In this document: positions 3,293 to 64,000 of the stretch, piece by piece
Layout: each line of letters starts with the position of its first letter
How positions within the stretch are numbered: the stretch's first letter is position 1
NCBI GenBank assembly: GCA_947561395.2
Contig: OX387183.1
Coordinates: forward strand, 32,538,853-32,602,852
Direction of reading: 5' to 3'
DNA length: 64,000 nt
Source: Buxus sempervirens
Taxonomy: Eukaryota; Streptophyta; Magnoliopsida; Buxales; Buxaceae
The notes under the pieces: model-generated
The model's database searches: none
The model's input: only the letters and a program-made list of their open reading frames with translations
What the model was told of the DNA's origin: nothing
Program-made: the position numbers and the translations under genes

Positions 3293-3305
3293 AAGAGGAG
3301 GGGAC
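3293..3305 (+). other. Polypurine tract
   Basis: AAGAGGAGGGGAC lies directly before the 3' LTR, where plus-strand DNA synthesis would be primed. Confidence 0.8.
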
Positions 3306-3676
3306 TGATGTAGGATGAGTGGGACCCAAAGTCTAGATTAGTTAGTTATTTAATAAAAGTAGAATTCCTATTTTCTTGCATTAGATATTTGAGTTATATT
3401 AGGAGTCTTTAAGAGGTTTTAGAGTTAGATTTTAACTTTAAGTTGTTTACTATGAGTAGGAGTCCTAATTTTAATAGGTTTCTATTTTATTTTGGGGTCT
3501 TTTAAGGTCTATAAATAAGGGGTAAAGGTTGTACACGAATTTTAGACATTAATTTTAAAAGAACTATAGAGTTTCTCTTTCATCTTCCTTGTGGATTCAA
3601 GGTTATTTGCTGGTTGATTCCAATTTTCTAGGATTAACGGAGATTAATCCTTATTTTCGTAACTTTCACTGCGTCA
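3306..3676 (+). repeat. 3' long terminal repeat
   Basis: Same length and ends as 1054-1424, with seven single-base differences. It is followed by aaaaatgata. Confidence 0.9.
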
Positions 3677-3946
3677 AAAATGATATCCTTAAACCGACTT
3701 AACAAAATTATAAATAAGTCCCATTATATAACCCAAGAGTGTCCTGTATAGTCTTGTGTGAGTTTGTAAGGAGTGTGTGTTATATTGGAACTATGTGCTA
3801 AATATTTTCAACTATTTATAGAAGGTGTGCTATCTTCTTAACATGTACTACATATTAGTGTATGAGAGTGAGGGTAAGTTCTAACCTTCTTCTACTAAGG
3901 ATAATCTCGAGCAAAATGGCTAAGGGTCTTGCAGTTATAGTACTTA

Positions 3947-17700: not shown

Positions 17701-20700
17701 TTTAGTCATGACATATCCTGAATATTATGGATAGGAATCATACCAGGGTCAATGGGACCACTGGTGGTCACTGTGACTCTTTGCTCGCCTGCAACAATAT
17801 CTGCCTGCAAGATTCGCCCAACATCAAATGGATCTGGAGCATAAATTGATTTTGTTGCCCCTGTTGCAGTGAAATTCAAACAAATAGAAGTAAGGATAAT
17901 GATGTCACATGATTTGAATGTAAGAGTTCAGATAACCAGGAATGTTTAACAAGAATTTCTCACATGTAATAATGAGAATGTAAGTGAATAGTTAATCAAG
18001 AAAACAAAGCTTAAGTAACTGAAGTATATCAAGACTTAATGGTACAAATATGATATGCCTACATGATGATTTGAAGGTATAAATACATCAAAAAAAACCC
18101 TCTAATTAACCCATGCGCATGTAATTTTATATCCAGAACAAAAGATGAATGTTTTAGCAGGTCTTCAATTCATAGGTCGTACTGATTTACTCCTAACTTG
18201 AGTACATGCCAGATTTCTTCTATTATTCCCAAAATACTAGAAGTTTATTATTGAAGAAACTTGATTGTTTTGCTAAGATTACATTCTTTGGTGGAACTGA
18301 TCAAGATGAGACTGGAAAATCACTGCAAATTATTCATCCAAAATCAGACTATTGTATGTACATTTGATGTATGTAAATCTTAAATATGTGTGATCACGTC
18401 GTGTAATGTATCCGTGCATGCATAAGCGAGCAATTCTTGGCATGACAAATTTTTTTGTGTGACCCTTCTATCCATATTTTTCCCTAAAACATCATTATCC
18501 ATATGTAAAATATCAACTTAAAATACAAGGAAGAGATCAGCACCTCTTTTACTTTTTTTCCTGTTCTAAAATTGAAAAACCACATTGTAGTTTAGTGTAA
18601 TTTTGTTTCATTGAAAAATTTCAATTCCAGTAAAAGGAAAGCACTTTAAAAGCCTGAGCTTTCAACCATAGCCATTGGACCTCCTTGTGTGCATGCCTTA
18701 AAGTTGGATTTATGACCCTTTACAAAATAAGTTATTTGGTTACTAGCTCAAATTTCTTGGGATTGATAATTGGTATCAAAATGAGAAGTTAAAAAAATGA
18801 CTTCATTGGTTGTAGTTCCTCACTTTAGTTTCTCAACAATATCTCTTTCACTTGTTCTCTCTTTATATTTTGTGACTAGCAATTATCTCCTCTTCCTTCT
18901 GTCCTACCGCAAAACAAGCAGGAAAAAAGAAAAAGAGGATCTCAATCTCATAGTTCTTCTTTTGTAAATTGATATCAGACAATTTTCTATCATTGTTAGT
19001 AAGGTGGTGAATACTAAATTATTGTTGTGATTTTACAGGTTGCTCAAATGACAATAAAAAGTACGTACAAGAATTTATTGCATAATCGGATGATCAATGG
19101 ATCAATGATTTGTTTAGTCATGTGTATTGAAAATAACATTTTTGACACCATTGAAAATGATACATTCATGCAACTATTTTAGAATATGAAGACTTGTAGA
19201 GGGCAATTCTATAAAGATTTATTTGTCCAATTTTACAACTTTTCTTATAGGTTTTTTTTTCTAGGGGTGCAACTCAGTTCATTGGTTCGGTTTGCCCACC
19301 CAAAACCAAATTGAGGTTCTTGACTATCAACAACCGAACCAAACAAAATTGAGAACTGATCACTCCAAGCAGAAAATCAAATTGAAATGAAATCAAAAAC
19401 AGTAAAGAAGAACCAACCCAACCCAAATTATAAATTCATTTTGGCTTGGGTCAGTTTAGTTCACTTTAACACACATTAAATGAGTTTTATAATCATTATA
19501 TTCTTTGAGGCTAAGAATAAAGATAAGATTGGTCTTTAAATTATACCTATGATATCATAATCATCATCAACATAAGCTAGTTCCCGCCAAAGTGGGGTCG
19601 GTGACACAAATCTTGTCTCTCCATCCTACTCTATAAAAAATCATCTTCAGTTACTTTATGTTTATGTGTCTTGTTTTATCAAATCCAATGATATTTTTTT
19701 AAATCTTCCTCTTTATCTCTTAGGCCCTTTGTTATGGTATACCAATTGTAAATAAATAAATACATGACCTATACAATTGTATATATACATGTTTGGTTTA
19801 TTCTAGTGAAATGTATTTATAGGCCAGGTTTCGGTTCAGTTTGTTTTCACCAAGACATCAACCCAAAACTGAAACCAACTTAGTTTGGGTCACAGATTTT
19901 CAAACCAAAACTGAGCCATATACTTTGAAACGAAACCCAAACCCAAAACTGAGATCAATGTAGTCCGTTTTAGGTCAGTTGGTTCACAAGTTTAACTGAA
20001 CCATGTTTCACTATTAGTTTCTTCTAAAAATTTTTATTTTTAATGTAATTAAATTCATTTATCGATTTTATTTTTTGGCCCCTCATGAGCTAATATGCTA
20101 GCTCCGCTCCTGTCATCATCTATTAGCTGAGGATACCAAAAGAGAAACCAATTTCCACGCTATAGGATAGAACACCAAAATATATGAGTAGCTTTCAAAG
20201 TATGATCCCAAATCAAAACATGGGTTCAAAGCAAATGCCTTGAACCCTAGTTCACTAATTTCTAACCAAGGCCGCCATACCCTTTCATATACATCATCAA
20301 AAAACCAAGTTCCCTTAAATATCACATGGAATACATAATAAGGGAATTTGGTGAAATGGATGTCATGAAATTATAAATCATAATTAACAAAAATATGTCA
20401 GAGACATACAAGTGAAAATAACTAGATTGAACAAAGTATTTGAATTATTTTTCCATTTTTTCTTTTGTTTTCATATATGATGGGAATTAGATTAATATGT
20501 TCATTTTCGACCACATCCCCAATTAATCATCCATCATAACATTGTTAGACAGAAGACAGTATATGAAGGGAGTTGTAAATGCACCTGAAATAATATCCTT
20601 CTTGCTACCTTCACATGATACTCGATACCATTGAATTGAACATTTTGAAAATTCTGGAGCTTTATCTGTGCAAGGTTGGATCAACAAGTATGAACCTAAT

Positions 20701-23700: not shown

Positions 23701-26700
23701 TCTTGATTGGGCGTGTATATAAAAAAGGAGGGAGATAAAAGGTTTTCGGGTTTTCTTTTGGATGATCCTATGACCAAGATAGAGAAAGAGAAGATTATTA
23801 ATCATCTCAAGGTTGGGTTTGGATTTATAGTGAGAGGAGGTAAGTAGTAACTTTTACAACTTAGAAAATATTGCATGATTTTATGTTTAATCGACAAATA
23901 TGGATTCCGAGGGATTTGTTGGATGTATTTTATCTGATTTAAGGATTTGTATAGATGGCTTCGTGGGTTTTATCGAACATACATGAACTTTACAAGAACT
24001 ATCAAAGTATTTTGAACATGTGATTTTCCTTAGGTTTTGATATAAAAAAACTCGTTGATCTTTGTTTTTGACGATCTAAATGACTTTGCATGTTTAGAGG
24101 ACAAAAACCCAAGATTTCGAGATGATTTGGAGTGTTAGATTGGTGAAAATTAAATTAGATTTGAAAAGTTTGCCAAAAACCCAGATTTTGTGAAATTGAA
24201 CGAACGCTCGACATCTAGCTTGAGTGCCAGATCAGGCACCCTAATGTTTTAGACGAATTCCTGAAACTGTTCAAGCGCGGATTCAAGCGCTAAGGCTGTG
24301 TTTTTCTTAAAAAAAAAATTAGAACCCGAGAGTTAAAATTTGGATTTAGGCCAGATGCTCGAGATGTGGCTCGAGTGTCACATCGAGTGCTCGAAGTTGA
24401 AAACCCAGAATTCCTAGCGCCAGACTTGTCTCTTGAGCGTGACAGCGAGTGACCACTTCTCAAATTGATTTTGAACGAGCACCCGATATAGCGCCTTACC
24501 CTAGGCTTGAGCACCCATTCCCAGTTTTTCATATTTTGTCCAAATTGCCTAGTTTTTTATTCTAAACTTATTTTTATGGAATTCCAACTCATGTATCAAC
24601 AAGAATAGGGTGTTTTGAAATTATTTACATTGGTCACAGCATTAATAGGATTTTTATAAATAATTTGGGTACATTTTGCTAAAATAACTCTTGTTTTTGG
24701 TTTATTGTTCCAAAATGATTTCTTTTTAACTTAGCTTGTTTTTAATGGTTTATACACTTGTATTTGAACTATCTAAAGATGTTTTCCAGGTTGCTACGAT
24801 AGAATTACATTTATTTCCTCCTTGTATCTTGGAGTGGATTATTTTCTCACTCATGTATCTTGGGCTGAGGATTTGATTTTCCCATGTATCTTGGGATAAT
24901 CTTTTGGTTTTCGTCCATGTATCTTGGAGTGATTTATATATTAATTTGGCATTATTAAACTACTTGGATTTATTTTAGATATTGGGGATGCTTGCCTTGT
25001 GTCTAGCGAACATAGCTTGTTATGGATCCATAGTTTAGTTAGATAGTGAAATGATTCATTCCTTGTTTAGTTAATCTTGTGTTCCATTTATGCATTTCCA
25101 CCATGTATCTTGGTGAGGCCTTCCTGTATCTAGTCGTGCTACAGCAATCCCACTCGTCGTTTATCTTGATGTGGTCATTATTTTGGGCTACCCACCATGT
25201 ATCTCGGTCTGGTATTCCCATGTTGGTTTTGGATATTGTTGCAATTTGATTGGATTGTACTTGCCAACCCAATTCTATATCTGGTTGGGTTCTCCCCTAT
25301 GTTGTAGCTCGTGTATCACGGCCAACATACAACGGGAGGTGGCAATTGGTGCGAGTCTTAACTTCTCAAAGATATCTTATTTCATGAGTCCTATGATGTC
25401 ACAATTGTATGGTGTGCTGATTGTATTATTTAAGTATTAATTATTGGCTTTGCTTTGGAAATATGTGATTTAAATTTCATACTCAATTATCCATATATAT
25501 TTGGTATTTGGATTTATCATTGAAATCTCATGAAAAAGGATTTCAAATTATATGGACTGTTTTCTCTCATGCATGTTACTGTTTACTGGGATTTTATATC
25601 TTATACCTTTTTTTTCAGATACTCTTGGAGAGGATGTGCCAGCTGGAGTAGAGAATTTTGAAGGTACTGCAGATGATCTAGAAGAGTATGTTATAACTTA
25701 TTAGTTTCTTTTATATTATGTTAGGAGATTTGTTTTAAGAGTTATTTCTTTCATGATAGGTCTTGAGAAGTGTTTATAATAGGTAGTTTAAGTTATAAAT
25801 TTCATATTTGATGTATTGAGTTAATAAGTTTATTTTGAGGATTACTAGCACTTTTATATTGAATTAATTAAGGAGTTGTTTAAATTTTGGTGTACTCCGA
25901 TTTACTTTATCTTTTATGCTTTTGTTCTTAATTGTTTTGTTATCACCAAATAATGCCTTGATCCATTGAAAAAAAAAACTACTTGACCCGTGGTGTTATA
26001 GGTGTGGGTTATTATCTCTCTTGTGATATGAGATGAGTTTATCATTAATTTCCATATTTGGCCTGTTTTCTATGCTTGCTAGGTACCATTTATTATCGGA
26101 CTCATGTTTAGTCCTGTGTTTTTTTAGTGTCTAGACAAGCATAGCTTAATGTGGATCTATGATTTAGCTAGATAGTGAAATGTGGTACACTTTGTTAGGT
26201 TAACCCCTTGTCTATATCCGTGTTTCCACTGTGTATCTCGATGAGGTCTTCTTATATTTGGTAAAGCTGCGGCAACCCATTTTAACTGTGTATCTCGATG
26301 TGGTCATTCTATTTAGGTATTGGTTATTACGTTGGGGTATTGCTGCAGTTTGACTGGGTTGCACTTGCTAACCTAATATTGTATTTGGTTGGGTGCTCCT
26401 CCCTGTATGGTGACCATGTATCTCGACTCGTACATGTAAGACGTGAGGTGACAGATGGGCATGGGTCTTAGCTTATCAAAGATACCTTAATTCAAGAGTC
26501 CTGTGAAGTCACACATTTTATCAATTTCTACGCACTTTTGGGGATTTCAGATTTACTACTATTCTTTATTATTTCATTATGATTAGCAGTATTCATTGAA
26601 TTGCTTACACTATTTTGTTATTAATACTTCATGCCACTGATTTAAAATGTTACGTAAAATGTTTTATTGCATGCATGTGCTACTTGATGAGATGTATGTC

Positions 26701-35700: not shown

Positions 35701-38700
35701 ACAAGGGCTAAGTAATTTTTTAATTAAACCATTTAATGCCCACCTCTTGATCAAAACCGAACCGAATTTAGATTTGGTTTGGTTTGGTTTGGTTTGGGTT
35801 TAGGGTTTTCTATTTAAAATCGGTTTGGTTTTCGGTTTGATAGGTTCGGTTTAAACTTTGGCTCGGTTCGGTTTTGGATTGATGTCCAAAATCTTCGATT
35901 TGGTCTTGGGTTGAGTACAACCCGGACTGAACCGGCCTGAGTTGCACCCCTAACCAATACCACAACATCCGGCTTCCGACCTTGACATAAATCCCAAACT
36001 GCCCTACGCTTTTCCACATCCCCCAATCCTCTTATATTCCAGCACAGTACCTTCATTGAAACCAAGAGCACCCTCAAATCCCAAAACCTATACTCTTAGT
36101 ACCACTCCTACTCCTTCCCTAACCTAGACCTAAAGGAGTAAACCACCACCCCCATGGAAACATTCTCCCCTCACCCCATTTTGCTTTCTTAATGACAACT
36201 TCTGAAAACATCTTCACTCTCCCACAACCATCTAAATTATTATTCACTTCCACCCCTCCCATAATATTGCCTTCAATCTCCAACGCCCCCTCCCTAACCC
36301 CCCTAGATTCTTGCTTTTCATTTAAAGTGACCAGATGCTTTGGCGAATCAGCATTAACCAATCCATGTCTCATACACCCAGAGAAGTCTTCCATAGGAGA
36401 AGAAGATAATGGAGAGTTATTAACCCAAGGACTCCAATGAGGTGGTGTACCTGAATTCAGCTGATGTCCTGAAGGTGATAACAAAGAATGGTGAGAAAAG
36501 GGCTCTAAACACTCCTCCAACAGCCCTTCCACAGCTTCAGGCACCCTGCTTTCATCTCCTTTAATGACGACACTACTAACCTTATGCATCGAGAAAGATT
36601 TAGATGGCTTAATCCCTTTTTTTACCCTTCTGGAGTACACCTTCTGGTCACTTGTCCCTGACTACATGAAAAGCCTTTTCTTCGGAGTTGTCACCCCCCC
36701 CCCCCCCCCTCCCCTCATAGTTGCTGAACTCAACCCCACCAGCCCCTACAGGCGATCCCAGCTAATGATCAGCAAAGAACTCCTTCTCACTATTAACCAC
36801 TGGGCTGTGCACACAATACCCTGTAGTCTCCTTTCTCAGTAGTGTTTGCTCAGCCATGCCTTCATTTAAGCCTTCACTACACTCTCCTATAGCCTGCAAC
36901 TCGCCTTTCCTTATGCTGCCCACTGATTTCCTTCTCATATTACCCAATAACAGCTTATCTCTACAGCCACCTACAACACCAAACACAGAGGAGAATGAGC
37001 TGGACTTAGGTTATCTATGCTTCCTTTTTCAACAATCACCCTACCTTTGCCTTTTTATTTGACAAAGGAGTCTCCTTCATACCATCTGGAGGATCAACTT
37101 CCAACGCTTTTACCCTTTCTTCGAGCTTCATCAAATAACAGTCCAAGCCTCCCAAGAAATCAGCTACATAGGAGGAATGATAGTTGGACCCCATCACCAT
37201 ATCACAACTGGCCTCACCTTTCAACTTCCTCTCCATCATGTTATCCTTCCAATAAGCCTTTTCTGCATTCCTATTTGAAGATGAAGGGAGAAGAAGGTGA
37301 CTAAAGTTAGAAGTGCGTACCCGAGAATTCTCCTCCCTTGGTTGCTTGGTTACCGCTTGATATTTGTCAACCACCAGAAGCCGAGACAAGTTAAAGACAT
37401 TCTTCTCTTTAACCTCCCCACCATCAGAAGCACAAGCCTGAACCCTTGCATTCTTTGCTTAGTTGGGCCACACCTCTCGGTCTCCTCTCACTGTTGGATT
37501 GATGTATGGCCCATTTGGGCCCACCTTGACCAACTTCATCCCCCAAGGGCCCACAAGACATACAATTTGAGTCACTTGTATCATCTTGGCCTTGCTTATT
37601 TGAGTTCCTTTTCCCAGAACTGACGTGTTCCCCCCTAAGACCGCCCGAAAAGGATGAAGTCTCTGGTTTTGCACTCAAAACTTCCACAAACACCTCCGAC
37701 CACCAATTCCCTTCCCAAATCGCTAAACACCGAGGAATTTTCCTTTTTAACGATTCATTGACTCACATCAGAACCGACCAATTTTGCACCATCTCTCCAA
37801 AACCCCCATTATGTCCCCTAGTGAATGGAAGGTAGAATTCCCCCATAGATGCGGAGGAATACCTTCCAGTTGAACCCACCATCCCTCATTCGACACCAGG
37901 CGCACCACCGAACCTCTCCCATGAACCCATTTATTAAATGAAATTATCAGCCCATCCTCCAACACCCAAGGACTACGACCTATCCATCTCGCTTTCTGTC
38001 CTCCATCCTTCGCAAATAATAAAGCTTCTTGAGTATTCAATGGAATCATCTGATCACAGGCTACTGCACCCAACCCACCAACATTCTCTAATCTATTCCA
38101 TTCAAGGGGACGAGAACTTCTACAGAGAACTGGATAATCCCATTCTGGTCCTCTAAGAGAGGCAGTCAGCTGTATGTCAATAGCTCTATCAACACCTTCC
38201 ATTAACAAATTACTCTTTGTCTGAATATTGTTCCTCATAACTTGGAACAAGCATTGATTGTCTTCTCCTTCCTTTCCCATCTGAAAAAACAAAACCTCAT
38301 TATTTGACAACTTCTTAACAGCCACTTTCTCATTCTTGGTACAGCTAACCTGCTGCTCCTTTAATGCCTTCCACAATGACATTATATAATCCCTACTCTT
38401 GTCTCTTGAATTGATTGGGAAGACTAGAGACTGATTTCTTCCGCCATTCCAAATAGCAAGAACTTGGAAGAACAAACCCCTACTATTACACTTCACCATT
38501 GCTACATATCTACAATTTCTCCATCTGAATGCTCCAATGGTCCCCCTAAAGTTATAGTGCTGATGTAGGGTCCCAATAGTATTCAACAGCCATTAGAGCC
38601 CTTGATTAGCGAAACTCAAGGTGCTGGAAAATCTCCCATTCTTCTCTGTTATCTTCAAATAAGCCCCACTCCCTCCTTTCCTCCCTTCAAAGCAAAATTC

Positions 38701-44595: not shown

Positions 44596-47044
44596 TAATA
44601 TTTAAAAATAGGGATTTAAAATATGGCGAAAATAGATTAAAATAGAAGTTTCTTTTATATGGTAGTTAGGAGACAATTTAAAAGAAGAGTCAAGATAAAA
44701 TAGGAAAGTTGGATTACTAGAAAGGTTCCCAAATATAATTAGGACTCTTGGTTGACCATGTGTATAAAAGAAGGGAGATAGAAGTTTTTGAATTTCCTAC
44801 GATCAAGACAGAGAGAGAGGAAGGAGCTCACGGCTGGGTCTAGAACAAGAGAGAGAGAGTGAACGGCTAGTGGAAGAAGAAGGAAGAGAGAAAGGAACAT
44901 TATTGATCATCTCAAAGCTTGGGTTTGGATCTAACCTTTACAACTTGGAAAAGAATGCATGATTTTATGTTTAATCGACATATATGGATTCCGAGGGTTT
45001 TGTTGGATGTATTTTATCTGATTTGAGGATTTGTGTAGATGGTTTCGTGGGTTTTATTGAACATAAATGAACTTTACAAGAATTGTCAAAGTATGTTTGA
45101 AAGTGAGATTTTCCTTAGGAAAACTTGTTGATCATTGTTTTTTATGATCTAGAATGACTTGGCATGTTTAGAGGACAAAACCCAAGATTTTGAGGTGATT
45201 TGAAGTATTAGATTGGTGAAAATTATATTAGATTTGAAAAGTTTTCGAAAACCCAAATTTTGTGAAATTGAACGGACGCCCAACATCTAGCTCGGGCGCC
45301 AGATCAAGGGCCCAAATGTTTTAGATGAACGGCCGATGCCGTTCAAGCAGGCACTCGAGCGCTCTGCCTCTGTTTTTTTTTTTTTTAAATTACAACTTGA
45401 GAGTTAAATTTTGGATTTAGACTGAGTGCCCGAGATGTGGCTTAAGCGCCCGAATTTAAAACACAGAATTCCTAGTGCCCAACTAGTTGCTTGAGTGCGA
45501 CAGCAAGTGACCACTTCTCAAATTGATTTTAAACGAGTGCCCAATATAGCGCCCTACCCTAGGCTCGAGCGCCCATTGACAGATTTTCATATTTTTGCCT
45601 TTTAACCCAGAATTTGATTTTAAACCTATTTTTATGGATTTCCAACTCATGTACCAACTAGATTAGGGTGTTTTGAGAGTATTTACATTGGCCAAAACAT
45701 TAATTGGATTTTTATAAAAAATTTGGGTACGTTTTGCTAAAATAACTCTTGTTTTGGGTTTATTGTTCCAAATTGATTTTGTTTTCACTTAGCTTGTTTT
45801 TAATGGTTTAGACACTTATATTTGAACTATCTAAAGACGTTTTCAAGGTTTCTATGGCAGAATTACATGTATTTCTTCCATGTATCTTGGAGTGGCTTAT
45901 TTTCTCACTCATGTATCTTGGGTTGAAGATTTGACTTTCCCATGTATCTTACGATAATCTTTTGGTTTTCATCAATGTATCTTGGAGTGATTTATATATT
46001 AATTTGGCATTGTTAAACTACTTGGATTTATTTTAGATATTGGGGATGCTTGCCTTGTGTCTAGCGAATATAGCTTGTTATGGATCCATAGTTTAGTCAG
46101 ATAGTGAAATGATTCATTCCTCGTTTAGTTAATCTCGTGTTCCATTTATGCATTTCCACCATGTATCTTGGTAAGGCCTTCCTGTATCTGGTTGTGCTAC
46201 AACAATCCCACTCGTCGTTTATCTTGACGTGGTCACTATTTTGGGCTACCCACCGTGTATCTCGATCTGGTATTCCCATGTTGGTTTTGGATATTGTTGC
46301 AGTTTGATTGGATTGTACTTGCCAACCCAATTCTGTATCTGGTTGGGTTCTCCCCTATGTTGTAGTTCGTGTATCTCGGCCAACATATGACGGGAGGTGG
46401 AATTGGTGCGGGTCTTAACTTCTCAAAGATATCTTATTTCACGAGTCCTGTGATGTCACAATTGTATGGTGTGCTGATTGTATTATTTAAGTATTAATTA
46501 TTGGCTTTGCTTTGGAAATATGCGATTTGGATTTCATACTCTATTATTCATAGATATTTGGTATTTTGATTTATCATTGGAACCTCATAAAAAGAGGATT
46601 TCAAATTATATGGATAGTATTCTCTCATACATGTTACTGCTTACTGGGATTTTATATCTCATACCGTTGTTTTCAAATACTCTTGGAGAGTTGGAGAGGA
46701 CGTGCTAGCTAAGATAGAGAATTTTGAGGGTACTGCAAGTGATCTAGAAGAGCATGTTATAGCTTATTAGTTTCTTTATATTATGTTAGGAGATTTGTTT
46801 TAGGAGTTCTTTCTTTCATGATAGGTCTTGAGAAGTGTTTAGAATAGGTAGTTTACCTTTTAAATTTCAGATTTGATGTGGATTATTAGCACTTTTGTAT
46901 TGAATTAATGGAGTTACTTAAATTTTGGCGTACTCTGATTTACCTTATCTTTTTATGCTTTTGTTCTTAATTGTTTTGCTATCACTAAGTAATGCCCTTG
47001 ATCTGTTGAATAAAAAAAAAAACTACCAAATCTGAGGCGTTATA
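44596..47044. repeat. Dispersed 2.45 kb non-coding repeat, copy 2
   Basis: Closely similar to 23551-26000, in the same orientation. In the 234 bp at 46097-46330, compared with 25039-25272, I count 11 differences, all transitions. The right end is ctgaggcgttata. Confidence 0.8.
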
Positions 47045-57458: not shown

Positions 57459-59360
57459 GACCTCAATGATTATGTAGTTTCATTCTCATGTTTTCACTCA
57501 CCCAACAAAGTAGTATACTGAAGCCTTATATGTTGAAGTGTTAATTTTCCATTTGCACTGGAGACCATTCTTTGGATTAAAATCGAGATGGTTTGATTCG
57601 GTTTCAAGTTTGAACATGCTACCATTGTTCCAAAGTTCTTTAGCTCCTAGCAAGATGAGGAAACTTGGCAATAAAATATTTTCCAATATTTTAACGCCAA
57701 GATGATCAATGTGGAAACTGGCATGGTTTGATATCTGGTTTAGATCATTTACTTTGTCCATTTTTTATAATCTATGCATGCTTTTGTATGTTTTCGTGAC
57801 TATAAGAACCCTAATTTTGCACCATAAAATGGCCTAGGATGCAAAGCCCTGAATTGGCACATGGATGGACATGCTAACCAAGGTTGAAATAGGGGGCCCA
57901 TATTTATGAAATAACAAACCAATAATTTGGAGAATTCTGAGCAGATTACAATGCATCAAGTTGTGCTTAAATCGGACCTCAAACGTATAAGTTATGAATA
58001 AAACAAGGAAAATGGAATTTAGGGCTTTGTTTTGTGGGAAATTAGAAAAATCAAGTGAATGCCACATAGCAGCCACATGGGTGCCATGTGGCTAAATGAG
58101 AAGTCTTGGATGAGCACATTTCTCATTAAGTTGAAGTGGGTAAGACTTTAATTTTCTTTAAAGTTGCAAGGAAACTACTTGACCATAGGCTAAAAATAGG
58201 ATGGTCTTCTTCAACACCCAAGAGAGATCCCTTGGGAGTTGAAGGGGTTTTTTTTTTAAATTGGGTGGTCGTCCAAGAGAGATAAAAAGGGAAACTTGCT
58301 GAAGTGAAGAAGCTAAGAAGAAACAAGAAACAAGAAACAAAAAGAAAAAGGAAAGGGAGAAGCCTAGAACGTCCAAGTGAGGGCCAGGTAATATCCAAGA
58401 GAGAATGCAGAATAGATAGAGAAATATCCAAGAGAGAATGCAGAATAGATAGAGAAAGGAGAAGAAAGGAATATAGGAGGTAGGAAAAACTATTCTGAAA
58501 CTTCAAACTAATATAGAGGCCAAAAGAAGGTGAGTAGATGATCCTAGGAGGCAACCTCGCACCCGAAGAGCTCCTAGTTCAAGTTGCAGCCCCCATCTCC
58601 ACATGTTTCAATGCTTTTCTTTTCTTTTTTTTCATTTCTGTAAATTTTGTTGTGCATAATCTAAATACTTGATGACCTTCTGATTGCTCAGATTTTCTTT
58701 ATTTTCGTAAAATAAAACGAGGGTGATAAGTGTTTGATTTGAGAAATCAAACAAAGCACTTCGGTTCGGTTTCTAAGACCAAATCATTGTTATCTATGGA
58801 TTGTTTGGCATCCTATGCGCAACCAAAATTCTGGAGATTTACTTGGACCTCTCATACATTAATTCCATAAAGTGTTGTCCATTAAAAGGATCGGCATGCG
58901 TTAAACCTAGGAACAACCATCATGTTTCAATTTTTTTGGGTGCGAACATCAAGTTGGTGATATATTGTTTCAATTATTTGATGTCTTTTTATTTTTTTTG
59001 GAACTTAGGGTATCCGGGCCCGCTTATGCTCAAGCGACTAATCCCTAAGGGCCTATGTAAGACCCTGCAACCCACATGACCCAAGTAAGTCTAAGGCCCA
59101 TAGACCTTATGCAGGTGGCCCCAAGAGATTGTGCCTAAGCGAGTTTGATTTTGTAAATAATTTTTGGCTAAATTTGTTCTTTTTGTCATGTAGATTTGAT
59201 GATGTTTTAATTTGCGGGATGTAATATAGTAATATAGTGATCCCCTCCCTTTTAACCTTTGCATATATTTAAAAAAGAAAGAATAAGAAGAAAAAAGGGG
59301 GAAAAAAAATAAAAATAAGAAAAGGAAACAAAAAGGAAAAGGTATTGGATGTGTGTTAAG
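57459..59360. other. No gene recognised
   Basis: AT-rich sequence. A ~44-bp tandem duplication (gatagagaaat, ccaagagagaatgcagaata) lies at about 58395-58456. No convincing coding region was found on either strand. Confidence 0.5.
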
Positions 59361-59503
59361 TAGGGGTCCAACTAGATTCGGTTTGGTCTGGGTTGATGTC
59401 AACTCAAGACCAAACCGAAACTACATGTATTCAACCCCAAACCGAACCGAACCTAATTGTAAACCGAAAACCTAAAACCGAAAACCGAATCAAAGTTAAA
59501 TAA
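59361..59503. mobile_element. Left part of a hAT-like element, split by Harbinger
   Basis: It starts taggggtccaactagattcgg, related to the 34679 element end, and continues with ccgaaccgaa repeats up to TAA. Similar ccgaaccgaacc sequence resumes after the Harbinger element at 63113-63133, but no right terminal repeat follows. Confidence 0.5.
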
Positions 59504-59831
59504 GAGGCCGTTTGGTAACGTTTTTTTTAAAAACAGTTTGAAAACTAAAAACAGTTAGAACTGTTTTTTGGTTTTTGAAAACAAGTGACAAGAAACTCGT
59601 TTGGTAACAATCACTATTTTTTGGGTTTTTGAAAACAGGTGACAAGAAACCCTTTTGGAAACAATTGATAAAAAAACAATTCAAGTTTTCAAAATTAACA
59701 AATATGCATTACTATACAACTTGCAAACCTATTAAATTATTAAAAATTTGCTATGAAAAAAAAAGGGAATCAAAATTTTGTACCACAAATTAAAAAGGAT
59801 AAATCCCATCAACTCTTTTCCTATTTATAGT

Positions 59832-61266
59832 CTAAACAACTCTTACACCATTAGCTATTGCCATTTCATATGCAATTCTATCTCTAAGTGCAATCATTTC
59901 TCTTTGTCGAGCTGCTTGTGAACTACCTTCCGAAGGCTCTACATTCTGTCCATCTTCACTTAGAATCAAGCCTTCCCTTCCATATTCTTCAAATAACTGA
60001 TCCCTTTGTGTCTCATGTCTAATGAAATTGTGAATTGTGCACGTTGCAATAACAATGTATCCTTGTGTGCGAAGAAAGTACGAAGGCATAAGCTTTAAAA
60101 TTGGAAACCGAGCTTTCAATACACCAAAGCAACGTTCTATCACGTTACGTAACGAAGAATGAACATGATTAAATAATTCTTTAGATGTATGTGTCTGTCG
60201 ACCTCTTCCTCGAAAGTCTCGTAAATGATATCGCTCTCCACGATAAGGTATAAGATAACCCGCCATGCCAGTATAACCAGAGTTCAAAACATAGTACTTA
60301 CCTAAGACAACATGATAATTGTTAAGAATTATGATTTGATATTAGAACTCAATTTCATAATTGAAAGTGTGTACATATATACCTGGGGGAGGGTGGGGAA
60401 AGTTCAAAGCTGGATTATTGATTGCATCTAAAAGAACCCAAGAATCATGCGCGGTGCCCTCCCAACCTGTACAGACAAATGTAAACTTCATATCAAATGA
60501 GCAGGCACACATTACATTCTGTGTGGTAATAGTTTTTCTCCCACGATATGGAACTTGTTTCTTCACTGGAACATAAGCATTAATATGTGTCCCATCTATT
60601 GCTCCAATACAATCCTATAAGAGATAACAAATAAAAAATTAATTTTGATTTCAGATACAATTTAAATACTACTAAATAAGACATGCTTTCTTCATTTACC
60701 TTGAACCAGGGATAGTACTTCATGTTATTGCGAATCTCATTTGGAGTTTCTTGAAAAGATGGCGGCACGATAGTCTCTTTCCCCAATTGTAATATAGCTT
60801 TTAAAACAATTTTAAAGTGTCTAGAAACAATTTCTCCAGAGTGTTGAAAACGATCAGCAATCATTCGATTTCTTTGATTATGCCCCAAGGTCATAAGAAA
60901 CATAGCCACTTGCTCTTCCACGCTTACATAACGTGACTCATATAAAAACTTCTTCTCCTTAAGGGTATGACAAAGAGATAAAAATACATGTTTCTCCATC
61001 CTAAGTATATCAAAAAACCTTTGAGGATTGTCATTTAAGATATTCATCACATAATTTGCACCACTGTAATCATCACTTCTATATGGTGATTTACAAAAGT
61101 ACATATTATAATGATTTGCAATTGCTTCTACCACGACCATTTCCACCATCAAATCGTGTTCCTCATCAGATTCTAGATTATCATAATCCCCATCTGATTG
61201 AGAGTCATCATCATGAAATATAGAGTCACTATATGACTCTTCTTCTAAGTCGTTGTCTGACTCCAT
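59832..61266 (-). CDS. PIF/Harbinger transposase (DDE_Tnp_4 type), three exons
   Basis: Exons 60700-61266, 60383-60614 and 59832-60301 join in frame (1269 nt, 422 aa). Introns of 85 and 81 bp have AAG/GTAAAT...TTATAG and CCCAG/GTATAT...CTTAG borders. The N-terminus is acidic (MESDNDLEEESYSD), followed by a helical region (GHNQRNRMIADRFQHSGE). The catalytic domain has CIGAIDGTHI (first Asp), TAHDSWVL, then VLNSGYTGMAGYLIPYRGE and NVIERCFGVLKARFPIL (Glu). Family members normally have DSGY or DAGY at the third motif; here it is NSGY, with 48 residues between it and the Glu. Start: ATG 61266 is preferred to 61302 because tcttcatacag just upstream looks like a splice acceptor of a 5' leader intron. 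The open frame is intact, but the D-to-N change suggests loss of cutting activity. Confidence 0.88.
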
Positions 61267-62082
61267 TATATCTGTATGAAGATAAACAAATAGAGGTCTC
61301 ATGAAGATTTTACACGAGCAATGATAAAACCATTGTAACTTATAAACATAGCAAAATTTACAAATAAAGAAACTTTAGAAGGAAAGAAGGGCAATGATTA
61401 AATTTAAGAGCCTTTCTATATCTTCCTTCTCTAGCAAGCATGTTGCCTCTTACACTCCATAAGCAGGTTCCTCTCTCCACTATTTGCACTTTCTCCTTAA
61501 ATAAGTAAATATTAGATTATATATCCATTTCATTCCTATTCCTTCATGACAATGATACAATTTATGTATCATAAAGACTGATCAATAAGAAAGTGTTAGA
61601 AGAAAATATTCTGAACTCCAATATAATAACCATGGCAAGTATATATGGCACCATAAAGCTCATACTTTTATTTCAATTCTATGAAATAAAAATATTGAAG
61701 CAATTCCACATAAAAGAATACGTTTCTGTCCAGAGAAAATGCCAACAAAAAGGGATAAAATGAGGGCAATAATTAGTGGCAAGTGATGGAGAATTCACAA
61801 TCCAATGATATATAAATGTTAGGAACTTAAATGCTAAACCCACAAACACATAGAATAGAGAAGGCTTTTTCTTCTTCCTTTTTGTGGGGGTGAGTTGTTC
61901 TACAGTTTCAAGAATATATATAAATTCCAGGTTAGTAGAGTGAAGTGCATCATTAATGGGAAAATAGGAATTCCTTTTTCTCAATAAAAAAAATTATCAT
62001 AGAAAAACAAATCATGTAAGGAAAAAAACCCTAAACGAAGCAGTGACAACCATTGTCTAGTTCAACCAAGAAGATCACAAAA

Positions 62083-62177
62083 TGAAATAACTGAACAATA
62101 GAGCATGGCCTGAATTTATAGTAATTGCTGTGAAATAACTGAACAATAGAGCATGGCCTGAATTTATAGTAATTGCT
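62083..62177. repeat. 48-bp tandem duplication
   Basis: Two near-identical copies of a unit starting tgaaataactgaacaataga, inside the Harbinger element. Confidence 0.9.
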
Positions 62178-62492
62178 ATACTTAGTTTCAGTTTAGACCA
62201 TTGTAGCTTGCACCGAAATTCCTGAAACTGCTTTTTCCTCATAAACAACAAAATAGAGCACAGATTCACAAGAATTAGTAACAAGCCGCATCAACTCTGT
62301 CTCAAAGAAAGGGAAATCAACTTCCCCTTATTTTATTCCTCTAAAAATACTACAGGGAAAGGAATTCAATAAGGGTTTCATCGCAAACTGAAGATGCAAA
62401 CACGAATAATCTAACCGTTGCAGATCAGATCAGAGATCTCCTTCTTCCAAACAAACGAGAATCCGGGATTTTGGAATTTTTTATTTTTTTTC

Positions 62493-62849
62493 TCAGGACA
62501 CAAACACACGAATCTGTTCAAGGAAGCTCAGTTTCTGGGGCCGATCCTTCCGCTTCACGTACCCTCTCGCCTCCTTCTCCGTATACCTGCAAAACCCTCT
62601 CTCTTCGTTCTTCTTCCACAGCTCCGCCGCGAAGCTTCTGTGCGCGTAATAGGCCTCCGCTTCCACCACTCCAACTCCGGCGCATTCTCCTTCTTTGATC
62701 CCCACCGGCAACCTCTCGTAGTGACCGTGACTCGTTCCCTCCAGCTCATCTAGTTGGGCGAGTCCGCATCCGAACACTGCGTATAACTCGCCCCAGACTC
62801 GGTCGCCGGAGCCCGGGATGTTGAGGAGGAAAGGGACAGAGAAGGGCCC
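62493..62849 (-). pseudogene. Captured gamma-glutamylcyclotransferase-like C-terminal fragment
   Basis: The minus strand has an open frame with GPFSVPFLLNIPGSGDRVWG, LAQLDELEGTS, AEAYYAHRSFAAELWKKN and YTEKEARGYVKRKDRPQKLS, ending IRVFVS and TGA. These match the C-terminal two thirds of plant gamma-glutamylcyclotransferase/AIG2-like proteins (for example the At3g02910 type). The fragment is much richer in GC than its surroundings. The N-terminal VFTYGTLK region, with the substrate loop, is missing: upstream sequence soon becomes the transposon's subterminal repeat. It lies inside the Harbinger element on the transposase strand, 1.2 kb upstream of it, and is probably a captured exon. Confidence 0.72.
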
Positions 62850-63280
62850 CCAATCTTTGGTGCTCGTTAACGACCCCTCCGATGTATCGAAGAGAAAAAA
62901 AAAATTTATTACAAAAATGCCATTCAATAAAAAAAACGTTTCATCGTTTTTAGAAACGAAAATTTTCAGTTTCTAAAAACCCGATTATTTTTCAACCGCT
63001 TTTTTAAAAACGATTTGAAATTATTTTCAACCAAACACGTTTTTGGTTTTCTGTGTTTAAAAACCGAAAAACGGTTTCTGAACACGTTACCAAACGGTCT
63101 CTAAAATAATCGAAAACTGAACCGAACCGAACCAGCTCATTGTCAGATAAATAAAGATCTCGAAATTAAAAAAAAAAATAACCAAAAAAAAATACAGACA
63201 GTTCTGCATATCAAATATATAAGTGGAAAAGAAAAATGATAACAAAACCCCTTTGTCTTCCATTCCTATTTGTTCTCCTT

Positions 63281-63712
63281 CTAACGGTATGACTTCTGGA
63301 AACGAGCACGAGCTCCACGACCACCGAATTTTTTGGGCTCGCAGTGTCTGGGATCAGCAACGAGGAGTGTCCAATCGTACCTAACAGGGATATCCTTGAT
63401 CTCCGTCTTCTATTGTTCGTCGACATACTTCTGGTAGTAAGCAACAAGCGCCTTCGCGATGCTTTGGCGGATCACATATATCTGTCAAGTATGGCCACCG
63501 CCACGAACCCTGATCCTCATATCCACACTAGCGAAGCGAGGATGACCGAGCAGAAGGATCGGCTCGTAAGCCTTGTAATGGAGGATCTCAGGCTCCACCA
63601 GCTCGATGGGGCAGCCATTAATTTTGATGAGGCCTCACCCGCGTTTGCAGTATGTTACCGCAATGGCTGTTTTCTTTCGTCCAAAACACTGAACCGACTC
63701 CACAGCTGCCAT
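63281..63712 (-). pseudogene. RPS16: Cytosolic ribosomal protein S16 (uS9) pseudogene
   Basis: An uninterrupted reading register of 144 codons runs from ATG 63712 to TAG 63281: [65 protein letters not shown] and [17 protein letters not shown]. This covers the whole of S16, a component of the 40S subunit head (plant S16 is about 146 aa). There are three in-frame stops and no frameshift: TGA at 63635-63637 (in KRG-R), TGA at 63485-63487 (HT-S-QIY) and TAG at 63410-63412 (DEQ-S-K). No poly(A) tail was seen on the 3' side, so processed origin is unproven. The open frame on the other strand (63344-63793) is its shadow. Confidence 0.93.
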
Positions 63713-63793
63713 GATTACCCACGTTCCATTTCTCCCCACACAAACCCTAGAGCGGAGAATATCACTTCCAACAACGTACAGAGAAGGAAGTGA

Positions 63794-64000
63794 AACAAAG
63801 TGCGGTGATCTTTATTTTGTACTAGCATTAAACCCTTTGCTACGCACGGAAAATACATACATTTAATACAGTTTGAGAAAATTTTTTATAAATATTAAAA
63901 AATATAGAAATCAGTCCCAAAATGTAAAGTAAATTTTAGAGTTGCGTATATTCGTAATCATTTTTATCATTTATTAATCATCTCATCTCTAACAAAAAAG
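63794..64000. other. AT-rich end of window
   Basis: No feature was recognised. The phrase actagcattaaaccctttgctacgcacgg may belong to a repeat, without clear ends. Confidence 0.4.

Follow-up and report, generated by a model that had tools for sequence, protein, structure and literature searches.

A gene-fragment-carrying PIF/Harbinger element of Buxus sempervirens that was probably built in at least three steps

Our analysis points to a PIF/Harbinger element that carries fragments of host genes and that was built, with a probability that we put at roughly 0.8, in at least three steps: the capture of an exon, the replacement of part of that exon by a piece of a GGACT/AIG2-like gene, and the joining of the gene-bearing half to a half with a transposase. 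How cut-and-paste elements acquire host genes is disputed, with the fusion of neighboring elements set against template-switch repair. Here, a single genome holds likely donors, an element in the state before replacement (L049), elements in the state after it (L010-L012), and recombinants with a transposase (the window element and L009). Because these states coexist, they suggest an order of events and expose the footprint of a replacement, which neighbor fusion does not predict. Throughout, the window is the whole 64-kb stretch that was analyzed (C3:32538853-32602852), L and C numbers denote loci and contigs, and the genome searched is the 676.5-Mb assembly of 247 contigs.

Results

Boundaries and class of the element

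The window contains an element with terminal inverted repeats (TIRs), target-site duplications, and a three-exon transposase:

59504-63101, no strand assigned: PIF/Harbinger element, 3598 bp, defined by TIRs and target-site duplication, with the same ends at further insertions
59501-59503, no strand assigned: left TAA target-site duplication
59504-59520, plus strand: left TIR, 16/17 match with the right TIR
63085-63101, minus strand: right TIR
63102-63104, no strand assigned: right TAA target-site duplication
60700-61266, minus strand: transposase exon 1, ATG at 61266, GT-AG model without internal stop
60383-60614, minus strand: transposase exon 2, first half of DDE_Tnp_4 (PF13359, E 9.9e-7)
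59832-60301, minus strand: transposase exon 3 to the stop, second half of DDE_Tnp_4 (PF13359, E 5.3e-11)

The TIRs, GAGGCCGTTTGGTAACG and GAGACCGTTTGGTAACG, are inverted and 17 bp long with one mismatch. As described in the accessible part of PMC2213677, PIF/Harbinger TIRs span 14-25 bp and carry a G(N)5GTT motif at the 5' end, and GAGGCCGTTTGGTAACG is of this kind. No other TAA/TTA-flanked inverted pair occurs in the 64-kb window at ≥16/17 matches and 300-8000 bp spacing, and such a pair appeared in none of 20 simulated first-order Markov windows; uniqueness and simulation together rule out TIRs that arose by chance. The other class features agree. Specifically, the 3-bp target duplication is TAA in the window element and in a second copy (L009) and TTA in three more (L010, L011, and L012), and an IS5-type DDE transposase is recognized by its profile match to PF13359 in two exons of an open three-exon model. 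Between 59000 and 64000, there was no Rfam match at the gathering threshold. NCBIfam gave no match either. When the flanks of the element were joined, they aligned to window 35780-35952 (175 columns, 73%) and the score rose from 94 bits for the left flank alone to 109 bits, which is weak evidence for an empty site given that the sequence is AACCG-rich. The target site itself (59361-59503 and 63105-63135) resembles an AACCG-rich repeat with element-free relatives at 35780-35952 and 19262-19423.

The window has other features of its own. Inside the element, a perfect 47-bp tandem duplication (62083-62177) is also found in L009 and L049 (one copy at 97.9%). Just outside it, at about 63280-63712 on the minus strand, lies what is probably a processed pseudogene of 40S ribosomal protein S16 (uS9). 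It can be followed in a single frame that contains stops, and a 49-aa stretch of it matches uS9 chains of solved ribosomes (4e-22). Direct repeats of 374 bp (1052-1425 and 3304-3677; 98.1% identical) flank a retrotransposon gag frame (PF03732, 1989-2864) in what looks like a short, young LTR element, and a 2.1-kb repeat pair in the same orientation (23848-25978 and 44932-47019) is 86.8% identical.

A block from a GGACT/AIG2-like gene

Upstream of the transposase lies host-like coding DNA:

62382-62849, minus strand: captured GGACT/AIG2-like block, 92.7% identical to L013 3848-4318
62493-62849, minus strand: coding part of the block, 118 codons plus stop, from PF06094 and alignment

The frame around 62493-62849 matches the Pfam GGACT profile PF06094 (E 4.8e-8, 34 bits against a cut-off of 22.8) over profile positions 43-104 of 120. 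A sequence-only reading of this DNA had proposed that a Harbinger element carries a piece of a gene of this family, with its natural stop codon, upstream of the transposase and on the same strand. This description holds inside the TIR/TAA-bounded interval 59504-63101, where 118 codons and a stop run from 62849 to 62493 on the minus strand. The interval that it gave, 62493-62849, stands for the coding part but not for the whole, since the copied block is 62382-62849. The reading had also suggested that read-through might yield chimeric or antisense transcripts that affect the parental gene. Because the fragment lies on the transposase strand, a transcript driven by the element would be sense.

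The parental gene that the reading had called for has a full-length counterpart on C9 (L013), with an open and uninterrupted ORF of 171 codons (MGFEEKETRTLVFTYGTLKRG...) whose domain is matched from the first position. Relative to this gene, the block contains residues 54-171, the stop (357 bp of coding sequence including it), and 111 bp of 3' flank. The domain is incomplete in the fragment, which covers GGACT profile positions 43-104 of 120, against 1-104 in the C9 protein. The absence of residues 1-53, including the N-terminal YGTL motif, which we take to be part of the substrate pocket in this family, makes it most likely that the GGACT piece is passive cargo. When the 9-kb C9 locus was compared with window 58504-64000 (E 1e-5), it aligned solely to 62382-62849, which rules out a fragment that continues beyond the element. 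No second match to the fragment, as a donor gene would give, was found within the 64-kb window.

A genome search with the GGACT piece returned nine matches: the window, four at 96-97%, the C9 gene at 93%, and three at 74-78% (L014-L016). The last three are decayed fragments at 74-81% (L014 3665-3856, L015 3265-3446, and L016 4022-4189) that have other flanking DNA in common and share no further sequence with the window element (E 1e-5). In-frame stops in all three, along with these common flanks, rule them out as paralogous genes; perhaps a different repeat family captured the GGACT gene independently and earlier.

Copies, divergence, and the donor

Five elements bear the GGACT block: the window element and the four matches at 96-97%, namely L009 (C10), L010 (C8), L011 (C3), and L012 (C14). 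The transposase is present in the window element and L009 and absent from L010-L012. Both GGACT breakpoints are identical in every copy, and each copy is bordered by a TAA or TTA duplication in a flanking context of its own. Common breakpoints and target duplications at five sites indicate that the block was captured once and then spread by transposition. Together with the full-length gene elsewhere, they bear out the earlier proposal of capture by a Harbinger element, and copies without the fragment, which it had suggested looking for, also exist (e.g., L049).

The copies are 95.1-98.9% identical to each other and 91.0-92.7% identical to the C9 gene (467-468 ungapped sites). With 5 gapped columns excluded, C9 stands apart from all five copies at 28 sites, of which 18 are coding, and 12 of the 18 fall in codon position 3. 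The surplus of position-3 differences is a hint that the block came from a relative of the C9 gene and not from a direct ancestor of that gene. Thirteen of the fixed sites can be read in the decayed copies L014-L016, which agree with the element copies at seven of them and with C9 at six.

In our view, recruitment of the fragment, either as the template of a short protein or as a regulator of the C9 gene by way of sense or small RNAs, is very unlikely. Four of the five copies retain an open frame, and dN/dS between copies and C9 is 0.14-0.25, as recruitment might predict. Yet L010 has an in-frame stop, dN/dS among copies ranges from 0 to 1.04 on few changes, and the first third of the domain is absent. 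Furthermore, low dN/dS can be explained by constraint on the gene itself, and we read it as that and not as constraint on the fragment.

Remnants of another gene around the block

The GGACT block is bordered on both sides by remnants of a different gene:

62346-62382, minus strand: 37-bp EDR1/CTR1-type first-exon remnant on the 3' side of the GGACT block, 94.6% identical to L060 1844-1880
62849-62885, minus strand: 37-bp EDR1/CTR1-type first-exon remnant on the 5' side of the block, 91.9% identical to L060 1479-1515

The source of these remnants became readable through L049 (C4), found with the query 61551-62381. This locus has 59503-59729, 61541-62382 (in pieces), and 62874-63102 in common with the window. 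It has no GGACT match; at the GGACT position it holds other GC-rich DNA that matches L060 (C21) at 94.3% over 383 aligned columns, with differences split 0, 7, and 7 by codon position. The L060 frame is open and reads MKHLLRKLHIGGGVNEHQRLG..., and a further frame on that strand, some 3 kb farther downstream, matches EDR1_CTR1_ARMC3_pept (PF14381, E 3.7e-48). We call the L060 frame the first exon of an EDR1/CTR1-type gene, a name taken from the downstream frame on the presumption that both belong to one gene. A gene of this type presumably encodes a Raf-like kinase; the C21 frame that was scanned for a kinase gave no Pfam match, and the first exon alone gave no relevant one. Part of the exon piece, aligned over 180 columns at 93% and 86%, also occurs in two loci on C22 (L061 and L062), neither of which has GGACT.

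Between the two remnants, 328 bp of the exon (L060 1516-1843) are missing and the GGACT block is in their place, with a 1-base overlap at each joint as aligned. In L049, about 10 bp are deleted from the 5' remnant, bases that the GGACT copies retain. On the simplest reading of these alignments, the exon piece was captured first and its inner ~328 bp were then replaced by GGACT, because the reverse order would leave no exon remnants around the block and because the sister L049 retains the exon piece without GGACT. One observation speaks against such a simple history: the piece taken up first is 94.3% identical to its C21 relative, and the GGACT piece taken up later only 91.0-92.7% identical to C9. 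Either the rates were unequal, or GGACT was really donated by a relative of the C9 gene that has diverged, been lost, or escaped assembly.

We consider it highly improbable, and the least probable of the accounts weighed here, that a 5'-truncated GGACT cDNA was inserted into the element by retroposition. An A-rich stretch directly follows the stop codon, and with an uninterrupted C9 ORF the lack of introns does not discriminate. But the A-rich stretch is also present in C9 genomic DNA, the match extends across the greater part of the 111 bp with no poly(A) at its end, and the surrounding exon has lost sequence at the site.

Probable joining of two halves at a 7-mer

The GGACT-bearing half appears to have met the transposase at a short shared sequence:

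61544-61550, no strand assigned: switch point TCATGAC between the transposase-bearing left half and the gene-bearing right half, from L032 and L023 versus L010-L012, L049, and L053

The transposase-bearing L032 matches the window as far as ...CCTTCATGAC and diverges after it. L023, apart from one mismatch in the 7-mer, and L043, apart from a short local duplication, behave like L032. L010-L012, L049, and L053 match the window from TCATGAC on and differ upstream of it. The window element and L009 thus have the left half of the L032 group and the right half of the L010-L012/L049/L053 group. By these comparisons, the window element is a chimera of a sibling's transposase half and the gene-bearing half of a transposase-less element. 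The alternative to one joining event would be two independent changes at the same 7-mer. Since the earlier state (L049) and the GGACT state (L010-L012) have a common short left half, joining would come last, and the simplest history would run from exon capture through GGACT replacement to joining with the transposase half.

ORF1 and its probable former position

The sequence-only reading had placed the fragment where the second gene of the element would be expected, which fits what we see in siblings. In the window element, ORF1 (Myb/SANT-like) was not recognized in the one scanned of two ORFs of ≥70 aa in 61369-62381. A sibling with 89% in the transposase search (L033) has two weak Myb/SANT ORF1-like pieces (PF12776, E 6.1e-4 and 0.018, both under the Pfam cut-off) upstream of its transposase on the same strand, their location inside the element being assumed, and L036 resembles L033 upstream of the transposase. 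In the window lineage, host fragments probably occupy the former ORF1 position. The portion available of PMC2213677 gives orf1 in 11 of 22 Medicago elements, and that of PMC2836001 states that Harbinger movement needs both proteins. If ORF1 is absent from the window element, movement would depend on ORF1 supplied from elsewhere.

Host DNA in other members of the family

Host DNA of other kinds is found elsewhere in the family. A search with transposase DNA gave at least 47 matches (40 of 184 first-look candidates scored) and one with the right end at least 43 (40 of 734 scored), five of the scored ones being the GGACT copies; copy counts are therefore lower bounds. Six further right-end neighborhoods of 621-631 bp (ranks 4 to 13) all have the boundary TGTATCGAAGAG, contain neither GGACT nor C21 exon DNA, and hold three other kinds of content. 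The first is composite, with two C4 loci as apparent donors (96% over 346 bp and 97% over 183 bp), the second has an apparent donor at C1:10.45 Mb (437 bp at 95%), and the third is represented by L068. ORFs from L066 and L071 had no Pfam match; the donors are hence unnamed. In addition, L027 and L029 carry a piece of a PPR gene between the transposase and the right end, in common with L028 (PF13041, 8.1e-9 for the L028 frame). Its apparent donor at C1:51.65 Mb, the one such donor locus that was retrieved, matches at 96.4% over 530 bp and has a 334-codon open frame. A further host-like stretch lies in the window element:

62164-62350, no strand assigned: third host-like stretch in the window element, 89-92% identical to four fetched loci on C3 and C10

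At L037, an RRM-like piece (PF00076, E 1.1e-5) is a candidate that we left out of the tally of captures, its position relative to the element not being established. Tentatively, and with more doubt than belief, we raise the idea that the family has a capture-prone site near the fixed boundary TGTATCGAAGAG (~62880), where host fragments would be acquired and overwritten time and again and exchanged between halves with and without a transposase. The family would then keep shuffling exons, driven by the repair of breaks within its elements.

Discussion

The events that we propose would have proceeded as follows. A related element would first have taken up ~400 bp of the EDR1/CTR1-type first exon from C21. 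In one descendant, the inner ~328 bp would then have been replaced by 468 bp of the GGACT/AIG2-like gene, leaving 37-bp remnants on both sides. Finally, the right half of a transposase-less element and the transposase-bearing left half of a sibling would have been joined at TCATGAC, giving rise to the window element and L009, and the GGACT-bearing elements would have transposed afterwards. In each step, repair of a break within the element may have switched templates and copied an ectopic locus. We infer this because there was replacement rather than insertion, because the recombinant joint has a 7-bp overlap, and because both GGACT joints have 1-bp overlaps, although these one-base overlaps are weak evidence. 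The pieces, the joints, their nesting, and the spread are read from the aligned loci, and repair with template switching fits best as their cause.

An argument can be made for a different route, in which two Harbinger copies flanking a host gene are mobilized together. This model, attributed to Catoni and colleagues, has been proposed for maize Pack-PIFs in which 163- and 58-bp pieces were added in turn, according to the available text of PMC8903248. For the element studied here, we regard it as quite improbable. The best TIR-like sequences at the GGACT joints matched 8 and 9 of 17 positions, scores that 200 random window pieces reach as well (deciles 7-10), so that neither joint has a relic above background, and the block is nested in a different gene's remains, which derive from a different contig and have lost ~328 bp. 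Replacement, the lack of TIR relics above background, donors on other contigs, and short overlaps make gap filling a better fit than the fusion of neighbors.

Gene capture by PIF/Harbinger elements is less rare than the sequence-only reading had implied, with cases described in the accessible parts of PMC2528002, PMC8903248, and PMC2572040. In grapevine, the PIF elements Pifvine-3/Harbinger-3_VV carry host exons and introns in their 5' region. Like the window element, Pifvine-3 has a transposase, host exon/intron-like 5' sequence, TAA/TTA duplications, and some captures in several copies. Compared by description only, it differs in its length of 5.8-6.7 kb, its 23-bp TIRs, and a tabulated ORF1, and the description in the available text includes no captured piece that overwrites another (PMC2528002). 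In nematodes, Turmoil-1 of C. elegans likewise combines a Harbinger-type transposase with transduplicated coding sequence, but there the captured sequence lies within 760-bp ITRs (PMC2572040, as far as its accessible text goes).

The Pack-PIFs of maize and rice resemble the window element in having mostly TAA/TTA duplications, gene pieces, and more than one donor per family. As presented in the available portion of PMC8903248, they are non-autonomous, their second piece was inserted, and neighbor fusion is proposed; the window element has a transposase gene, and its second piece took the place of part of the first. With respect to the Pack-TYPE definition, host-gene DNA does lie between the TIRs, but non-autonomy applies to L010-L012, which are without a transposase, and not to the window element and L009, which have one. 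The window element thus works like a Pack-PIF yet falls outside the strict definition. Single-copy Pack-TIRs of animals, which are explained by gap filling, provide another likeness: part of an element is replaced from an ectopic template, with microhomology at the joints (median 2 bp where present), as reported in the accessible text of PMC8277862, in which the word Harbinger does not occur. In the window element, by comparison, the DNA that gave way had itself been captured, and the result exists in several copies. Our search, with partial coverage of the literature and of few subscription journals, found no published PIF element in which one captured fragment overwrites another. Capture of genes is already published for PIF elements of grapevine, maize, and rice and for a nematode Harbinger; what our findings add is an overwriting that can still be read, together with recombination with a transposase half.
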